From: Myxococcus dinghuensis
GTDB lineage: Bacteria; Myxococcota; Myxococcia; Myxococcales; Myxococcaceae
Assembly: GCF_024198235.1 (NCBI RefSeq)
Contig: NZ_JAKCFB010000021.1
Span: 62,001-126,000 of the forward strand
Length of the DNA stretch: 64,000 nt
Direction: 5' to 3'
The stretch's first letter is position 1. Each line of letters starts with the position of its first letter. A model generated the notes under the pieces. It saw nothing but the letters and a program-made list of their open reading frames with translations, was not told the origin of the DNA and did no database searches. Shown here one piece after another: positions 6,064 to 57,752 of this stretch. Position numbers and translations under genes: made by a program.

Positions 6064-6726
6064 ATGGACGCCCACACCTTCCACCGCGTCGCGCTGCCGA
6101 GCGCCACGCTCGCCTTCCTCTTCCTCGCCATGGTGCTGCCCACGCTGCGCCTGCGGCGGCGCGGCGGCGGCTCCGCCTTCGTGCTGCATCAACGCGTCAA
6201 CCCGTTCCAGCGCCTCATCGGCGTGGCCATGGGCGTGTTCGTCCTGGGGATGACGGCCTGGAGCGCGCTGTACGCGGCCACGGGCGGCGCGGGGCTGGGG
6301 CTGTGGGCCGTGCCGCAGGCGGTGCGGTGGGCGGGCTGGACGCTGGTGGCGGCGGGGCTGGGCGTCGTGCTGGTCGCGCAGGTGCAGATGGGGGCCTCGT
6401 GGCGCATCGGCATCGACCGCGAGCCCACGGCGCTGGTGACGCGCGGCCTGTTCACCGTCGTGCGCAACCCCATCTTCGCGGGCATGCTGTGGGTCGTCAC
6501 CGGCGTCGCGCTCGTCACGCCGGGCGCGTGGACGGTGATGGCGTGGGTCGACTACGTGCTGCTCGTCTCCCTCCAGGTGCGATTGGAGGAGGCCCACCTG
6601 CTGCGCCTGCATGGGGAGGACTACGCGGCCTATGCGTCGCGCGTGGGACGCTTCTGGCCCGGCGTGGGGCGGCTGTCGCCGACGTCCCACGCGCAGGAGG
6701 GGATGGCGCCCCGAGTGACCCCTTGA
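6064..6726 (+). CDS. Isoprenylcysteine carboxyl methyltransferase (ICMT/PEMT)-family membrane protein
   Basis: About 220 aa (227 if the ATG at 6043 is used). There are four or five hydrophobic segments: residues ~5-25, ~50-75, ~80-105 and a pair near 150-180. The family signature is near the C-terminus: TRGLFTVVRNPIFAGML (Arg-Asn-Pro, cofactor region) and EEAHLLRLHGEDYAAYASRVGRFWPGVG (Glu-Glu-x-x-Leu ... Tyr-x-x-Tyr ... Arg-Phe-x-Pro), as in membrane S-adenosylmethionine-dependent methyltransferases. In bacteria these methylate lipids or small molecules rather than prenyl-proteins; the substrate here is unknown. It follows the sigma-factor gene by about 130 bp on the same strand and may or may not share its transcript. 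Confidence 0.8.
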   Translation: MDAHTFHRVALPSATLAFLFLAMVLPTLRLRRRGGGSAFVLHQRVNPFQRLIGVAMGVFVLGMTAWSALYAATGGAGLGLWAVPQAVRWAGWTLVAAGLGVVLVAQVQMGASWRIGIDREPTALVTRGLFTVVRNPIFAGMLWVVTGVALVTPGAWTVMAWVDYVLLVSLQVRLEEAHLLRLHGEDYAAYASRVGRFWPGVGRLSPTSHAQEGMAPRVTP

Positions 6727-48816: not shown

Positions 48817-51003
48817 ATGGCTCAGCGCGCTCGTTCCTGGAGTCCTCTGCTCGTCGTGCTCGTGCTGTCCGTGGCGGGGTGTCGCTGTGGTGACGAGCCG
48901 GGGCTGGGCAACGCCCGGTTGGGCTTCCGGCCCCAGGAGGAGGAGGTCGACTTCGGCCGCGTGCTGGAGGGCGAGCGGGGCACGCGGCAGGTGACGCTGG
49001 TGGCCACCGGCCGCGCCACCACGGAGGTCCAGGCGTCCGCGGAGTCTCCCTTCGCCGCGACGACGCCGGAGGTGAGCGTCCCCGGCAGCGGCTCCACGGT
49101 GGTGGAGGTGACGTTCCTCGCGGGCCATGGCGCGGCCGAGGGCGAGCTCGTGCTCCGGGGCGCCGGCAGCAGCGTGAGCGTGCGACTGAAGGGGCAGGGC
49201 GTCCGCCCGCTGAAGTGTGACCCGTCCGGGCCGTGCTTCGCGTCCCGCTTCGACCTCGAATCGGGGACGTGTGTCGAGACGCCGCTCACCGAGGGCGCCA
49301 CCTGCATCCCGGAGAGCCGGTGCCAGGTGGACGGGCGCTGCGAGTCCGGCGCGTGCGTGGGCTCGCCGCGCTCCTGCGACGACGACAACCCGTGCACGGT
49401 GGACGCGTGCTCGCCGCAGTTCGGCTGCGTGCGCACGGACGTCGTCTGCCCCGACCCGAACAACCCCTGCAAGGTGGGCCTGTGCGACCGCGACGACGGG
49501 TGCCAGGAGGTGGACGTGGCGGACTTCGTCCGCTGTGGCGCCATGGACTGCGAGCAGTCCCTCCTCTGCTTCGGGGGCTCGTGCAAGGCGTTCGACACGC
49601 CGGAGGGCACCGTGTGCGCGCCCGCCACGGCGTGTCAGGAGGTGGGCAAGTGTCAGGGCGGCGCTTGCACGAGGCCCCCTCCCGGGGACTTCGAGGCGGA
49701 CTTCTCCCAGGACCTGGGCGGCATCCCCTCGGGCGGCGGGGACGCGCCCATGCTGCTGGTCGACGAAGGCACCCTCTTCACCTCGGTGTGTGGCGGGGAC
49801 GCGGGCTGCCGGCTCGTCTCCTTCACGGAGGGGGGCCTGCTGCGCTACGCGGCGCCCTATCCCGAGGACGCGCCGCGCGCGCTGCTGGCGGTGTCCGACG
49901 CGGGCGTGGTCGTCCGGGGACCGAAGGGGCTGGAGGCCTACGCCGCGCGCGCGCCGGGCGCGCGGAAGTGGGAGGCCTCGTGGACGGCGCTGGGCGCGCC
50001 CGAGGGCGCGGGAGCGTGGCGGGGCGTGGTGGGCGCCGGACAGGTCGCGCTGACGTCGACCGGTGACGTGGTGGCGAGCGTGGCCTGGAGCCAGGCCGCC
50101 GACGCGGGCGAGGACGGCGGCGCGTCGCCTCCACCTCCGGAGGGCCAGCGCTGGGTCTGGCTCGATGGCCACGGGGATGCGGGCACCGTGCTCTACGCGG
50201 GCCCGGTCGAGCCCTGGCACGGCGAGACGCGGCTCGGCCTGGACCCGGCGGATGTCGCCTACCGCTACACGGTGGATGGCCTCCTGGAGCGCGCGGAGGT
50301 GGTGACGGCGGGCGCGGACGGCGGCCCGGGGCTGCGGGTGGTCACGCTCGAGGACGCCGGGCCGCTCGCGGGCCTCGCGTCGCTGTCGGTGTCGGACGAC
50401 CAGCTCCTGGTGGGGGCGCGGACCTCCGTGTTCCTCGATGGCGGGGTCGTGACGAAGGCGGAGGTGGACTGGGATGGAGGCACGCGGACGCTCGCGCCCA
50501 TGGCGGAGCCCGTGCTGCTCGCGGCGGAGGAGCAGGGCGCCGCGCGCGCCCTTCTGCTCGCTCGCGCGTGCGCGCGGACGGATGGCGTGCCGTGCCAGCC
50601 CGAGGAGGAGCGCCTGGTCCTGCGCGGGGTGGCGGCGGACACGGGCCGTGGGGTGTGGGAGGCGGACGTGCTGCCCTTCGAGTCGCTGGAGGGGACGCCG
50701 CGGGAGGCGACCCTCCTCCAGCGGGGCCAGGTGGGCTTGCTCGTGGACGTGCTCCGGCGGGACGGGCGGCAGGTGTGGTTCGAGGTCTATTCGGAGGGGA
50801 AGAAGGTGAGCGCGTGCCCGTTGCCGGGCCGGCCCACGTTCGGTGGCGCGACGTTCTTCGCGGGCAAGCTGCTCGTGGTGGTGGAGCGCGAGGGCGTGTG
50901 GCGACTGGAGTCCTACGCCATGGGGCCGGGCGTCCTCGCGGAGACGCGCGGCTGGCCCCAGCGCCACGCCACCGGCGCGGGGACGCGGCGCGGGGCGCCG
51001 TGA
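48817..51003 (+). CDS. Large lipoprotein: ASH-like domain, Cys-rich repeats, propeller-like body
   Basis: The protein has 728 aa. The signal peptide ends at a lipobox VAGC. Residues ~30-130 are an Ig/ASH-type domain (EEEVDFGRVLEGERGTRQVTL ... VEVTFLAG), of the kind in 'choice-of-anchor' proteins. A Cys-rich region (~130-290) has ten or more pairs of Cys (CDPSGPC, CIPESRCQVDGRCESGAC, CDDDNPCTVDACSPQFGC, CKVGLCDRDDGC), each like small EGF or dickkopf-type knots. From ~300 to 728 comes a beta-propeller-like run with repeated V-x-x-G-x-D and LVD-like strands. I infer a surface-displayed binding protein. It ends 1 nt before the convergent chemoreceptor fusion gene. Confidence 0.72.
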   Translation: MAQRARSWSPLLVVLVLSVAGCRCGDEPGLGNARLGFRPQEEEVDFGRVLEGERGTRQVTLVATGRATTEVQASAESPFAATTPEVSVPGSGSTVVEVTFLAGHGAAEGELVLRGAGSSVSVRLKGQGVRPLKCDPSGPCFASRFDLESGTCVETPLTEGATCIPESRCQVDGRCESGACVGSPRSCDDDNPCTVDACSPQFGCVRTDVVCPDPNNPCKVGLCDRDDGCQEVDVADFVRCGAMDCEQSLLCFGGSCKAFDTPEGTVCAPATACQEVGKCQGGACTRPPPGDFEADFSQDLGGIPSGGGDAPMLLVDEGTLFTSVCGGDAGCRLVSFTEGGLLRYAAPYPEDAPRALLAVSDAGVVVRGPKGLEAYAARAPGARKWEASWTALGAPEGAGAWRGVVGAGQVALTSTGDVVASVAWSQAADAGEDGGASPPPPEGQRWVWLDGHGDAGTVLYAGPVEPWHGETRLGLDPADVAYRYTVDGLLERAEVVTAGADGGPGLRVVTLEDAGPLAGLASLSVSDDQLLVGARTSVFLDGGVVTKAEVDWDGGTRTLAPMAEPVLLAAEEQGAARALLLARACARTDGVPCQPEEERLVLRGVAADTGRGVWEADVLPFESLEGTPREATLLQRGQVGLLVDVLRRDGRQVWFEVYSEGKKVSACPLPGRPTFGGATFFAGKLLVVVEREGVWRLESYAMGPGVLAETRGWPQRHATGAGTRRGAP

Positions 51004-51004
51004 G

Positions 51005-54000
51005 TCACGCCGTCGCGTTCGGGTCCACCCACAGGTCCTCGAAGCGCACCTGCGGCGGCGCCTGGTGCAGCCGCAGGCCCTGCACGGACGTGGTGGCCGC
51101 GGCGTGGATGCGGTCGTGGTACAGCGGGATGAGCGGACAGTCGGCGCGGAAGAGGTGCTCGGCGCGGATGTAGAGCTGCTGGCGCAGCTCCGGGTCGATG
51201 GACACGCGCGCCTCGGAGGTGATGCGGTCCAGCTCCGTGTTGCGGTAGCCCAGCGGGTACACCGTCTGCGCGCTCGAGTTCAGCAGGAAGTGCAGGAAGG
51301 TGTCCGGGTCCGGGAAGTCCGCGAGCCACAGCGTGCGGAACGCCGGAATCTTCCCCTCGCGCAGCCGGGCCGAGTACTCCTCCGGCGGCATCACCACGTG
51401 CCGCAGCTCCAGCAGGCCCGCCTGGATGAGGGGGCGGAAGAGGACGGCGTCCTCCGCGGAGGTGTCGCGGCCGGTGGGGTGGTGCAGGGTGAGGCGCAGC
51501 CGGCGCAGGCCCACGTCGCGCAGGAGCTGCTCGGCGAGCGCCAGGTCCGGCGCGGGCTGCGGGTTCACCTCCGCGCCGCCCAGCAGCTCCGGCGGCGTCA
51601 GGGTCCGCGCCACCCGGGCGCCCGGATGGAACTGCTCCACCAGGCCCGCGATGTCCATGCCCGCGCGCAGCGCGCGCCGCACGCGCACGTCGTCATACGG
51701 CGACTCGCGCGAGTTGAGCGCCACGAACGCGGTGGAGGGCGTGGTGCTGGCCACCACCTGGAAGGACTCCAGCCCCGGCACCTCGACGTGCTCGGCGGAG
51801 AGGAACGAGACCAGGTCCGCGGCGCCGCGCTGCAGCCGCCCCACCGCCTCCTCGCGCGAGTCCACCAACTGGAACTCCAGCCGGTCGAGCATCGGCGCGC
51901 CGGTGCGCCAGTACGCGGGGTTGCGCTCCATCACCACGCGCTCGGGCTCCAGCGCCATCACCCGGAAGGGGCCGGTGCCCACCAGCCGCCCGCCCGCGTC
52001 CACGCGCGCCACCGCCGTGGGCGTCAGCGCCATCAGGTGCAGGAAGAAGGCCTTGGGCTCGCGCAGGCGGATCTCCAACGTCGCGTCGTCCAGCGCCTCG
52101 ATGCCCGTCACCTCGCGGGCCATGCCGGAGGCGTACTCGGTCGCGCCCTCCACGTCCTCCAGCAGGCTGCGGTCGGGCGAGCGCACCGCCGGGTCCAACA
52201 GGCGCTCCAGGTGGCGCTTCACGTCCTGCGCCGTCAGGGGCGCGCCGTCGTGGAAGGTGACGCCCCGGCGCAGGTAGAAGCGGTAGCGACGGGCGGACGG
52301 GTCCGCGTCCCAGCGCTCGGCGAGGTCCGGCTCCAGGCCGCCGTCCGCCAGCCGCACCAGCCCGGAGAAGGCGCACGCGGTCAGCTCCGACAACTGGTTC
52401 TCCACGCTGAACAGCGGGTCCACCGCCTGGCGGTTGCGCAGCGAGGCCGCCTGGTGGAGCACCACGCGCAGCGTGCCGCCCACGCGCGGCTGCGGCAGGC
52501 GGAAGCGGAACACCTCCGTCTCCAGCCCGAGCGCCTCGTGGCCCAGCTGGTCCACCGTGCGCGTCAGCCCGTCGCCGATGCGGATGACCCGGCGCGCGTC
52601 CTCGCGCACCTGCGCGACCTCCTCGCGGATGGACGCGTCCGCCCTGGTGAGCACCTGGTTGGCGCTGCGCAGCTCGTCGATGGAGGCGCTCAGCCGCACC
52701 ACGCTGTCGGACAGCTCGCGGCCCGCGCGCGCCTGGTCCTCCGCCTTCTGCGACGCGGTGTGGCCCACGCGCGCCATCTCGTGCGTCTGGCGCACCAGCT
52801 CGCGCGCGTGCCCGGCCTGCTCGATGGCCATGCGCGTGACGTCCTCCACGCGCCGGGCCACCCGGCGGCTCGCCTCCACCACCGTCGCGCCCTGGGCCTC
52901 CAGCCGCTGCGTCTCCGCCACCGTGGCCTCCACGGCGCTGAAGGTGCGCTGGGTGATGGTGCGGATCTCCACCAGCGCCTCGGTGGCGCGGTCGCCCATG
53001 GCCACGCCCGTGCCGGCCTGCTCGCGGCCCTCCTTCACCAGCGCCACCGTGGTCTGCACGGCGTCTCGCACGCCGGACACCATGGCGCCAATCTCGCGCG
53101 TGGAGCGCGTGGTGCGCTCGGCCAGGTTGCGAATCTCGTTGGCCACCACGCCGAAGGGGCGGCCGTGCTCGCCGGCCTGCGCGGCGATGATGGCGGCGTT
53201 GAGGGCCAGGAGGTTCGTCTGGTCGGCGATCTCCTGGATGACGTCGACGATGCGGCCAATCTCCGTGGAGCGCGCGCCCAGGGTGCCCATCAGCTCCGCG
53301 GCCTTCCGGATGGTCTCCTCCACCTGGTACATGCCCTTGACGCTGTCGGCGACGAGCACCTCGCCGCGCTCCGCCGTCGCCGTCACCGCCATGGCCAGCT
53401 GGTTCGTCTCGTTGGCGCGGCGGCGCACGGAGTCGATGCCGCCCTCCACCAGCGACACGAAGTCCTCCGCTTCGCTGGCGAAGCGCGCCAGCTCGTCACC
53501 GGAGGAGGCGATGTTGGCCAGCCGCTCGCTCATCGCCTGCATCAGCGCCGTGGTGCGGCTGGCGAAGTCGTTCACCTGCGACAGGCCGTCCACCACCTGC
53601 TCCAGCCGCTCCGTCATCTCCAGCAGCGAGCCCGTGGTGTCCACGGCGAAGGCCTCCAACTGGTGGACGCGCTTGCCCACCACCTGGAGGCTGGTGCCCA
53701 TGCCGCTGACGGACTCGAGCGTGCGCTCCACCGCGCCACCCTGCCGGCGCGCGGCCTCGAGCAGGGCGTCCGCCTGCTCGCTCACCTCGTTGCTCGTGCG
53801 GTGCAGGTTGGCCGTCACCCGCTGCACCTGGGACAGCGCGCGGCGCAGGGACAGGACGAGGCGCCGCACGTCCTCGTGTCCCTCGTAGCGGGGGCCGCCC
53901 GTGGTGGTGAGGTCGCCCTCCGCCAGCCGCGCCATGACGCGCCGCCGCGTCAGCCGCCGTATCGCGGCCCAGCGGAACCACGCCAGGTAGCCGCCGACGA

Positions 54001-54151
54001 GGTACAGCGTGGGCGTGGCGACCAGCAGCGCCGTCCACGAGGACGTCGTCAGTCGCTGCCCACCCGCCAACTGGAGCACCCCCCCCAGGACGAGCGCTGA
54101 AAGCACACCGGCCGCCAGGCCGAACGCGAAGAGGTACCGTTTGGCGCCCAT
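51005..54151 (-). CDS. Fusion of chemoreceptor (MCP) signalling domain with family-5 solute-binding protein domain
   Basis: The protein has 1048 aa. Two N-terminal membrane helices (~8-28 and ~40-60) enclose only a short loop, so there is no periplasmic ligand domain. A HAMP-like segment follows (~60-110), then a long MCP coiled coil (~115-540) with the hairpin tip at 307-347 (EIADQTNLLALNAA, GVVANEIRNLAERT). The canonical Glu after NAAI is replaced by Ile (NAAIIAAQAGEHG). From ~555 to 1048 is a complete SBP_bac_5 (DppA/OppA-like) domain: VGGTLRVVLHQ, FSGLVRLADG, YRFYLRRGVTFHDGAPLTAQDV, GTGPFRV. By topology that domain is on the cytoplasmic side. Such a fusion would join peptide or nickel-type ligand sensing to a Che/Frz-like pathway. 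Confidence 0.92.
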   Translation of the reverse strand: MGAKRYLFAFGLAAGVLSALVLGGVLQLAGGQRLTTSSWTALLVATPTLYLVGGYLAWFRWAAIRRLTRRRVMARLAEGDLTTTGGPRYEGHEDVRRLVLSLRRALSQVQRVTANLHRTSNEVSEQADALLEAARRQGGAVERTLESVSGMGTSLQVVGKRVHQLEAFAVDTTGSLLEMTERLEQVVDGLSQVNDFASRTTALMQAMSERLANIASSGDELARFASEAEDFVSLVEGGIDSVRRRANETNQLAMAVTATAERGEVLVADSVKGMYQVEETIRKAAELMGTLGARSTEIGRIVDVIQEIADQTNLLALNAAIIAAQAGEHGRPFGVVANEIRNLAERTTRSTREIGAMVSGVRDAVQTTVALVKEGREQAGTGVAMGDRATEALVEIRTITQRTFSAVEATVAETQRLEAQGATVVEASRRVARRVEDVTRMAIEQAGHARELVRQTHEMARVGHTASQKAEDQARAGRELSDSVVRLSASIDELRSANQVLTRADASIREEVAQVREDARRVIRIGDGLTRTVDQLGHEALGLETEVFRFRLPQPRVGGTLRVVLHQAASLRNRQAVDPLFSVENQLSELTACAFSGLVRLADGGLEPDLAERWDADPSARRYRFYLRRGVTFHDGAPLTAQDVKRHLERLLDPAVRSPDRSLLEDVEGATEYASGMAREVTGIEALDDATLEIRLREPKAFFLHLMALTPTAVARVDAGGRLVGTGPFRVMALEPERVVMERNPAYWRTGAPMLDRLEFQLVDSREEAVGRLQRGAADLVSFLSAEHVEVPGLESFQVVASTTPSTAFVALNSRESPYDDVRVRRALRAGMDIAGLVEQFHPGARVARTLTPPELLGGAEVNPQPAPDLALAEQLLRDVGLRRLRLTLHHPTGRDTSAEDAVLFRPLIQAGLLELRHVVMPPEEYSARLREGKIPAFRTLWLADFPDPDTFLHFLLNSSAQTVYPLGYRNTELDRITSEARVSIDPELRQQLYIRAEHLFRADCPLIPLYHDRIHAAATTSVQGLRLHQAPPQVRFEDLWVDPNATA

Positions 54152-55242: not shown

Positions 55243-56268
<1,026 letters not shown>

Positions 56269-56516
56269 GGTTGCACCCGGGACGCACCGGGATGGCGCGC
56301 CGGAAGGGGTGGGGACCATACACCACACCCCCCTCCATGCGCCCATCCACCTGCCCTCTTGATTCCTTTATGACGCACTGAGTCGGAGTGTCGCTCCCCG
56401 GCACGGCCGGAGGGTGCGAGTCGCCTCGCTGCGTCGTGAAACATTTCTCAAATAGGCGAGCCCCTGCCCGGGCGTCCGCTGTGTTGTCAGACGGGCGGGA
56501 AGCTCCTGGCGGGGGA

Positions 56517-57752
56517 ATGAAGCGCGGAATGCCTTGCGGTACGGTGTGTCAAACGTTGGCTGTCAAACCTTCGCAAGGACACGACCCATTGAGAAGACTG
56601 TTTCCTGGCTTGCTTGCGATGTGGCTGCTCCCGTCCCTCGCCTCCGCCAGCATCGTGTGGCGGGGGGACTTCGAGACGGGGAACCGCTCGCAATACACCG
56701 GTGAGCAGATGGTGAGCTCCGACCGGCTCCTGGTGGTGACGAACCCGGTGGCCGAGGGGAAGTATGCGCTGAAGGTCACGGTGAAGCAGGGAGATGACCC
56801 CATCAACGCGAGCGGCAACCGCAACGAGCTCGTGTATCAGAGTGGTGAGAAGGAAGGGTCCGAGTACTACTACCGCTGGAAGGTGATGTTCGCGTCGGAC
56901 TTCCCGAGCGTGGACACCTGGCAGTTGTTCACGCAGTGGCACCACGATGGGTGCTGCGGCTCGCCTCCGCTGGAGTTCTACGTGCGCGGCGAGGAGATCC
57001 GCATGGCGTTGAACTCCAACTCCACCATCCCCTGGCGCACCGCGCTCAAGCGGGGCGTGTGGCAGGAGTTCATCCTGCACGTGAAGTGGTCCTCCAACGC
57101 CAGCACCGGCTTCGTGGAGCTGTGGCACAACCAGAAGAAGGTGCTCTCGAAGACGTACGCCGCGACGATGTACGCGGGCAACAAGAACTACCTGAAGCTG
57201 GGCCTGTACCGCAGCGACACGGTGAAGCCGGTGGGCATCCTGTTCCACGACGGCTTCGTCCAGGCCACCGCGCTCTCGGACGTGCTCGACACCACGACCC
57301 CGTCGACCGACGCGGGCACCCCCGTGGACGCGGGCACGCCGGTGGACGCGGGCACCCCTGTCGACGCCGGCACGCCGGTGGACGCGGGTACCCCCGTGGA
57401 CGCGGGCACGCCGGTGGACGCGGGTACCCCCGTGGATGCGGGCACGCCGGTGGACGCGGGTACCCCCGTGGACGCGGGCACGCCGGTGGATGCCGGCACC
57501 CCCGGGGACGAGGGCACGCCCGGCGCCGGGGAGGACGCGGGGACGTCGCCAGGACCGCAGGTGGACGCGGGCACGGGGCCCACCGACGAATCACCTGGGA
57601 CGGGGACGGGCGTCATCCCTCCGACGTCCGGTGTCTCGCCGGATGACCTGGGCGCCGAGCCCGCGGGCTGCAACAGCGCGGGCGGTTCGGCCGCGGCGGT
57701 GTCGCTGCTCGCCCTGCTCGGGCTCGCGCGTGGGTGGCGACGCCGACGTTGA
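56517..57752 (+). CDS. Heparin-lyase-I-like secreted protein with DAGTP repeats and MYXO-CTERM signal
   Basis: About 411 aa from the ATG at 56517 (GGCGGGGGA just upstream); a TTG at 56589 would give a more standard signal peptide (LRRLFPGLLAMWLLPSLASA). Residues ~45-255 match the polysaccharide lyase/heparin lyase I fold: DFETGNRSQYTGEQ, GNRNELVYQSG, YYYRWKVMFASDF, WQLFTQWH. A tandem (D-A-G-T-P-V)n spacer follows (265-330), then a Pro/Thr-rich linker and the C-terminal AGCNSAGGSAA-hydrophobic-RRRR. The last element is a MYXO-CTERM sorting signal: Gly-Cys, a hydrophobic span (SLLALLGLA) and basic end. Such proteins are lipidated or anchored at the Cys after myxosortase cleavage, giving surface display. 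Confidence 0.85.
   Translation: MKRGMPCGTVCQTLAVKPSQGHDPLRRLFPGLLAMWLLPSLASASIVWRGDFETGNRSQYTGEQMVSSDRLLVVTNPVAEGKYALKVTVKQGDDPINASGNRNELVYQSGEKEGSEYYYRWKVMFASDFPSVDTWQLFTQWHHDGCCGSPPLEFYVRGEEIRMALNSNSTIPWRTALKRGVWQEFILHVKWSSNASTGFVELWHNQKKVLSKTYAATMYAGNKNYLKLGLYRSDTVKPVGILFHDGFVQATALSDVLDTTTPSTDAGTPVDAGTPVDAGTPVDAGTPVDAGTPVDAGTPVDAGTPVDAGTPVDAGTPVDAGTPVDAGTPGDEGTPGAGEDAGTSPGPQVDAGTGPTDESPGTGTGVIPPTSGVSPDDLGAEPAGCNSAGGSAAAVSLLALLGLARGWRRRR
57309..57506 (+). repeat. Eleven 18-bp tandem repeats encoding DAGTPV
   Basis: Eleven copies of an 18-bp unit (consensus GACGCGGGCACSCCSGTG) run without gap. Units alternate between ACCCCCGTG and ACGCCGGTG endings, so a 36-bp higher-order unit repeats about four to five times. 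The protein gets DAGTPV eleven times, a stiff Pro/Gly-rich spacer between the lyase domain and the surface anchor. Repeat number is likely to differ between strains. Confidence 0.92.

Follow-up and report, generated by a model that had tools for sequence, protein, structure and literature searches.

An McpK-like chemoreceptor of Myxococcus dinghuensis with a C-terminal, most likely cytoplasmic, solute-binding domain and a McpJ-type rod

Proteins of the SBP_bac_5 class commonly deliver nutrients from outside the cell to a receptor or a transporter. The locus described here raises the question of what such a domain might do at the end of a chemoreceptor's signalling rod, and on which side of the membrane it lies. 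The locus is part of a 64,000-nucleotide stretch of Myxococcus dinghuensis DNA (NCBI RefSeq assembly GCF_024198235.1, contig NZ_JAKCFB010000021.1, positions 62,001 to 126,000; hereafter the window), in which positions 51005-54151 of the minus strand form one open frame of 1048 amino acids (coordinates including the stop). The frame joins a methyl-accepting chemotaxis protein (MCP) signalling domain to a solute-binding protein (SBP) domain. Our results suggest that it encodes an orthologue of Myxococcus xanthus McpK, an orphan, membrane-anchored, McpJ-derived receptor that would read a peptide- or amine-like ligand in the cytoplasm and cluster with McpJ, and we put the probability of this reading at roughly 0.62. 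The fusion is real and conserved, and a counterpart seems to have been catalogued in the model species before, which a preliminary description made from the sequence had missed; that description's single frame with an MCP signalling domain and a full SBP_bac_5 domain is borne out by the open frame and by Pfam. The features of the gene are as follows.

51005-54151, minus strand: mcpK-like gene for a 1048-residue MCP-SBP_bac_5 fusion (open frame, Pfam, orthologues).
54065-54133, minus strand: predicted transmembrane helix 1, residues 7-29 (hydrophobic 7-25; helix 2-30 in the model).
53975-54046, minus strand: predicted transmembrane helix 2, residues 36-59 (hydrophobic 41-59; helix 36-77 in the model), after a short loop of 5-15 residues.
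53798-53974, minus strand: HAMP-like region, residues 60-118, opening with an arginine-rich stretch (alignment; Pfam HAMP unmatched).
52496-53797, minus strand: MCP rod with two long helical arms and a hairpin, residues 119-552 (Pfam MCPsignal at 252-427, arm lengths, model helices of low confidence).
53117-53230, minus strand: hairpin tip, residues 308-345, with Ile322/Gln325 replacing the usual Glu/Arg (alignments).
52472-52510, minus strand: linker, residues 548-560, where McpJ-type receptors end (alignments).
51023-52486, minus strand: SBP_bac_5 (peptide/nickel class) domain, residues 556-1043, with no preceding signal peptide (Pfam, PDB search, model).
51317-51319, minus strand: Asp945, aligned with OppA Asp419 (alignment; 36/36 orthologues).
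51335-51337, minus strand: Arg939, aligned with OppA Arg413 (alignment; 31/36 orthologues).

Pfam places MCPsignal (PF00015) at residues 252-427 (E 4.8e-33), where the conserved hairpin of an MCP signalling domain is present, and SBP_bac_5 at residues 606-961, covering profile positions 2-365 of 368 (E 9.9e-64); the latter is one of four SBP_bac_5 matches in the genome. A sequence search of the PDB returned chemoreceptors over residues ~173-460 and OppA/DppA-type proteins over ~576-1030, and the linker between rod and SBP domain is only ~10 residues long. In the AlphaFold model the first SBP strand starts at residue 560 and the SBP part is a confident, complete fold (predicted local distance difference test, pLDDT, 80-98 in blocks of ten residues); confidence in the rod is low, with many residues at 50-70 and the tip below 50. 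The fold comparison by VIA-align, whose rows lie mainly within residues 553-1045 and which thus covers the SBP, gave YliB as the best PDB match to residues 556-1043 (Z 38.1, 464 residues aligned, 2.8 A); chains of DppA, OppA and MppA scored Z 36-38. These four proteins are exported transporter partners. The window domain has their whole fold in common with them, and unlike them it is fused to a receptor and lacks a preceding signal peptide. Third-position guanine-plus-cytosine content is 0.95-1.0 over residues 41-1040 in the gene's frame (0.85 in residues 1-40), and the codon bias is unchanged at the rod/SBP junction, as expected of one coding frame throughout.

The window protein is very probably the orthologue of M. 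xanthus McpK (MXAN_6456), which was listed in 2014 as an orphan gene product of 1048 residues, in which an MCP signal domain (246-463) is combined with a bacterial extracellular solute-binding domain (PMC3945109). The assignment is based on the agreement in length and domains with that published description. The sections of PMC3945109 available to us hold no discussion of the membrane side of the SBP. They do report that all M. xanthus receptor genes except mcpC could be deleted and that all receptors were given a C-terminal GFP tag. McpJ and Mcp7 formed one or two subpolar clusters. McpK is outside the five mutants said there to be without defect and also outside the ten tagged receptors with clear foci, so that the GFP work, as far as these sections go, gives no topology.

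Of 195 genomes from the phylum, 85 in four families carry the same fusion, which the preliminary description had proposed to look for in other genomes, near full length, in a single frame and without a stop. The window's own family f1 (96 genomes) accounts for 82 of them, and f2, f9 and f10 for a single one each. These and the following genome counts were made by hand and hold among the matches listed. With six split or partial copies included (G003, split by frame; G107, G109, G114, G156 and G162, partial or over two contigs), the fusion is present in 88 of the 96 f1 genomes. No fusion was seen in the other eight (G111, G150, G152-G155, G160 and G028, the last with a fragment at a contig end), and in G164 (f10) the MCP and SBP halves lie on different contigs. 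Evidence for McpK thus extends to 92 genomes, the 88 in f1 and G037, G044, G163 and G164. SBP-less receptors matching the MCP half occur more widely than the fusion. For alignment we gathered 37 orthologue proteins, with G003 and G028 outside this set, and omitted L026 (G021, with a frame change near the gene start), which left 36 rows. Over the 630 pairs of these 36 orthologues the identities of the MCP half and the SBP half correlate at r = 0.97, which indicates that the halves were inherited together. A scan beyond the phylum yielded two MCP-SBP loci in its best 80 matches (L066 and L067), both from myxobacterial records; these 80 matches do not show that such fusions are absent elsewhere. 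Four genomes of genus g8 (G104, G105, G107 and G108) contain a pair of McpK-like matches; in G107 both members of the pair are partial. An apparent second McpK-like fusion in G047 (match 377-1026) was rejected, being by eye a separate SBP after a lipobox-like stretch.

The membrane side of the SBP domain was judged from hydrophobicity. The window protein has hydrophobic helices at residues 7-25 and 41-59, beyond residue 75 nothing exceeds the cut-off of 1.3, and two N-terminal membrane helices recur in 35 of the 36 orthologues (L030 passes the cut-off for the first only). Since the sequence from rod to SBP domain holds no clear membrane segment, the SBP domain is most likely cytoplasmic, like the rod, as the preliminary description had supposed. 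The signal peptide or lipobox of transporter-partner SBPs is missing here, and no hydrophobic segment directly precedes the SBP domain. The inverted topology offered in the same description as an alternative is weak; arginines cluster after the second helix, and an MCP rod makes sense only in the cytoplasm. Of the layout proposed there, the two N-terminal helices and the MCP tip stand, whereas the HAMP-like region has no match to the Pfam HAMP model (E up to 1) and is so called because of its position and by analogy with the McpJ-like paralogue, in which that model finds a match.

The hairpin tip of the receptor half reads NAAIIAAQ, so that the Glu-to-Ile exchange is paired with an Arg-to-Gln exchange three residues on. 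The preliminary description had noticed the first of these. It is real, with Ile in 36/36 aligned orthologues, and it is not peculiar to the fusion: among the 23 MCP matches of this genome the tip NAAIIAAQAG occurs only in the window protein and in a McpJ-like receptor (L041/L043), and of 11 McpJ-type receptors from other genomes (two of them from f1) nine carry NAAIIAAQAG and two near variants (L244, L247). On these alignments the Glu-to-Ile/Arg-to-Gln pair is a trait of the fusion-free McpJ receptor class, a point that is new here. An altered contact with CheA or CheW had been suggested as its effect. Tsr E385 and R388 form an ionic lock between the dimers of a trimer, according to the parts of PMC8144572 available to us, and in our own alignment Ile322 and Gln325 correspond to these two residues, which would point to trimer pairing and not directly to the CheA/CheW contact. 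L041 stops at '...VRRFRV', and L039 ends like it, where McpK runs on as '...VFRFRLP' into the SBP; an end like '...RRFRV' is found in six of the 11 McpJ-type receptors (L240, L244, L245, L248, L250, L251), and five end differently.

Rod length was measured from the HAMP acidic motif to the tip Asn, and the labels McpJ, DifA, FrzCD and Mcp7 were assigned in this genome by length and context; DifA was identified on contig C13 as an MCP whose neighbours are a CheW match and a CheA-like frame (CheA by eye). By this ruler eight of the 23 MCPs measure 148 residues, DifA 162, McpJ 232 and McpK 225, and the distance from tip to rod end is 234 residues in both McpJ and McpK as against ~150. DifA thus has two more heptads per arm than the 148-residue receptors, in agreement with its published class of 44 heptads (44H) if 148 residues equal 40H, a label carried over from the class published for M. 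xanthus MCPs. Compared with these 40H receptors, the C-terminal arm of McpK is longer by 84 residues (12 heptads, as in 64H) and its N-terminal arm by 77 (11 heptads), one heptad short; the 64H class has been published for other bacteria (PMC8235581, seen in part). The rod length of McpK is therefore close to that of McpJ, perhaps about the 64-heptad class, and not to that of DifA at 44, which is also new here. A rod like that of DifA, as the published 44H class of McpK would have it, is not what this genome's proteins show (225 as against 162 residues), and on the assumption that orthologues share their length this result contradicts the classes published for M. xanthus McpK (44H) and McpJ (40H) and argues against the published pairing of McpK with Dif.

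McpK thus looks like a McpJ-type receptor that gave up its periplasmic sensor and acquired instead a C-terminal SBP lacking a signal peptide, a view that is new here. Receptors of the McpJ type (M. xanthus McpJ, 723 residues; L041 in this genome) share tip class, C-arm length and rod end with McpK. L041 differs in having ~130 residues between its membrane helices (47-65 and 199-217), a Pfam HAMP match, more methylation motifs and no SBP. The hairpins of McpK and McpJ are 0.61 identical, those of McpK and Mcp7 0.54 and those of McpK and DifA 0.51; in the tree McpK and McpJ group together (94/85), joined next by Mcp7 (95/90) and then by DifA (81/64). In the scheme that we favour, a McpJ-type receptor would have lost its periplasmic sensor, leaving a two-helix hairpin, and gained a peptide-class SBP without signal peptide at its rod end. 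The SBP clamshell would close on an intracellular peptide- or amine-like ligand beside the membrane-proximal base of the rod, and its closure would shift the C-terminal rod arm. McpK would sit in mixed trimers or arrays with McpJ, its output passing to whichever CheA serves McpJ. A side observation concerns L177 (contig C33, 60.9-62.4 kb), which holds three CheW-domain matches, one of them in a CheA-like frame, on a contig with none of the 23 MCP matches; it is a candidate partner for orphan receptors. A fuller picture, to which we give somewhat less than even odds, is that the cytoplasm-facing SBP on the free C-terminal rod end is the only ligand sensor, that its signal enters by the arm opposite to the membrane-HAMP route with methylation sites largely absent, and that the McpJ array would in this way read outside and inside at once. 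The window protein has no consensus methylation motif, strict or loose; a strict motif lies near residue 488 in 24 of the 25 other orthologues of the genus that were scanned.

The ligand is probably peptide- or amine-like. We base this on the conservation of two residues, neither of which is diagnostic: Asp945, equivalent to OppA Asp419, the residue that holds the amino end of the peptide, and Arg939, equivalent to OppA Arg413. The former, together with the residue aligned with OppA Trp416, is kept in all 36 orthologues, from several families. No evidence was found for a metal ligand specifically, which the preliminary description had also entertained. The domain is under constraint: the ratio of nonsynonymous to synonymous substitution (dN/dS) is 0.145 in the comparison with L002 and 0.23-0.31 in those with L003, L006, L011 and L019, four more orthologues from the genus. 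Among close relatives, purifying selection constrains the SBP and the rod arms to much the same degree; the dN/dS values of distant pairs, near or at saturation, reach ~1 and were not used.

Several observations weigh against the reading of McpK as a McpJ-derived sensor of a cytoplasmic ligand. Its N-terminal arm is one heptad shorter than that of McpJ; the branches of McpK (1.69) and DifA (1.64) are long, which makes their places in the tree unsure; and the second closest hairpin, that of another receptor (L056), is at 0.59 nearly as similar as that of McpJ. Co-occurrence is uninformative as to the partner, since among the 92 genomes with McpK 90 have McpJ and 91 have DifA (E 1e-60 or better). 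Asp945 and the W-x-x-D motif are common across SBP_bac_5 (consensus of 56 rows) and so are no proof of peptide binding, and the scarcity of methylation motifs is weak evidence, given that 11 of the 22 other MCPs of the genome have no strict motif. In 20 of the 36 orthologues the hydrophobicity of a stretch near residues 353-371 exceeds the cut-off, with the usual Arg missing from it in L014, L016 and L017, and marginal hydrophobic stretches occur inside the SBP of L007-L010, L014, L028 and L033 (up to 1.55, in L033), one of them overlapping the SBP model helix 585-594. M. xanthus McpK, finally, is listed with three membrane segments (TMHMM, Table 1) and as 44H, grouped with DifA and linked to Dif, and McpJ is given as 40H in the parts of PMC3945109 that we could consult; the window protein has two segments and a rod of McpJ length.

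An alternative that we regard as unlikely is that the SBP no longer binds a ligand and has become a structural or protein-binding module. The domain is placed where no transporter partner is expected, and no transporter gene is present among the flanking genes identified (one neighbour of L037 has Peripla_BP_6). This explanation has to contend with the equivalents of OppA Asp419 and Trp416 kept throughout, the modelling of the window domain as a complete SBP and the strength of selection upon it.

Exopolysaccharide is the output of the Dif system. That McpK signals through Dif together with DifA, tuning Dif output from an internal cue, is the inference published from the 44H class and the Group 1 phylogeny (PMC3945109, in the sections available), and it agrees with the near-universal presence of DifA alongside McpK and with the position of DifA as the next branch of the tree after McpJ and Mcp7. 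The class of 44H fits the rod of DifA, however, and not that of McpK, the DifA tip keeps the Glu and Arg that are Ile and Gln in McpK, and the DifA hairpin is the less similar of the two; we consider this pairing quite improbable.

A periplasmic SBP, carried across the membrane by a third segment after the hairpin tip, has very little to recommend it. The TMHMM count of three in M. xanthus McpK (PMC3945109), the position of the third being unstated in the parts that we saw, would favour it, as would the stretch at ~353-371, with scores of up to 2.13 (L017). The residues in question belong to the C-arm of the MCP hairpin. Of the 20 orthologues in which they pass the cut-off, 17 have Arg-Asp there; the window protein reaches a score of only 1.16, the aligned part of McpJ is not hydrophobic, and a crossing at this point would split the signalling domain. 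We therefore reject this topology as far as the sequences go, and the same stretch may account for the third segment predicted in M. xanthus. A frameshift or sequencing error near residues ~550-560 joining two genes, which the preliminary description had named as a possible refutation, is ruled out by the 85 single-frame genomes, the uniform codon bias and the equal length of M. xanthus McpK (PMC3945109, in part), even though a short linker deletion in G003 (L031, ~6340-6360), real or an assembly error, splits the fusion there into two overlapping frames.

The surroundings of the gene add little. No che or frz genes, near which the fusion had been expected, are present among the flanking genes identified, some flanking frames having been left unidentified. 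AstA (arginine N-succinyltransferase; window 55243-56346, minus strand) lies near mcpK in six of 12 wider regions, as well as in G044 and in the majority of g1 loci whose flanks are long enough; in L035 it sits immediately upstream, on the strand of mcpK. We considered the neighbourhood as a clue to the ligand and set it aside; the arrangement around AstA has the look of an ancestral gene order and is no proof of a connection. An antisense open frame of 1085 residues (window 50843-54100, plus strand) is most likely a by-product of high GC content, and the plus-strand frame at window 56388-57752 would encode a protein whose C-terminal half contains successive GTPVDA repeats.

Intracellular use of this domain class has precedents. 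SBP_bac_5 is part of an intracellular regulator, as here, in the SgrR/DsvR transcription factors, where it is joined to a helix-turn-helix (PMC13060122, a preprint seen in part). The output of these factors is DNA binding and not an MCP rod. They presumably lack a membrane anchor. SBP profiles of Pfam are also said to match sensor domains of cytosolic signalling proteins, with Myxococcus unmentioned in the parts of PMC9602780 available to us. Two Anaerolineae frames of ~1300 residues (L088, 703-4608; L095, 2556-6443) join SBP_bac_5 to Guanylate_cyc/AAA and BTAD/AAA/TPR modules, likely another cytosolic use of it. Our literature searches found no publication joining SBP_bac_5 with MCPsignal, none on an SBP_bac_5 chemoreceptor in Myxococcus and none by the locus tag MXAN_6456. 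Besides PMC3945109, the papers retrieved that name both McpK and Myxococcus deal, to judge by their titles, with Pseudomonas aeruginosa.

What goes beyond the published listing of McpK is the probably inside-facing sensor, the apparent McpJ-type origin and the rod class. The rod length offers a concrete, testable correction, in that McpK should pair with McpJ rather than with DifA. Myxobacteria are known for their starvation-driven development. In McpK a binding protein has become part of what is presumably a receptor's cytoplasmic side, and most of a myxobacterial family has retained it. If the SBP binds intracellular peptides or amino-acid derivatives, a chemosensory array would couple the internal nutrient state of the cell to its motility or development.

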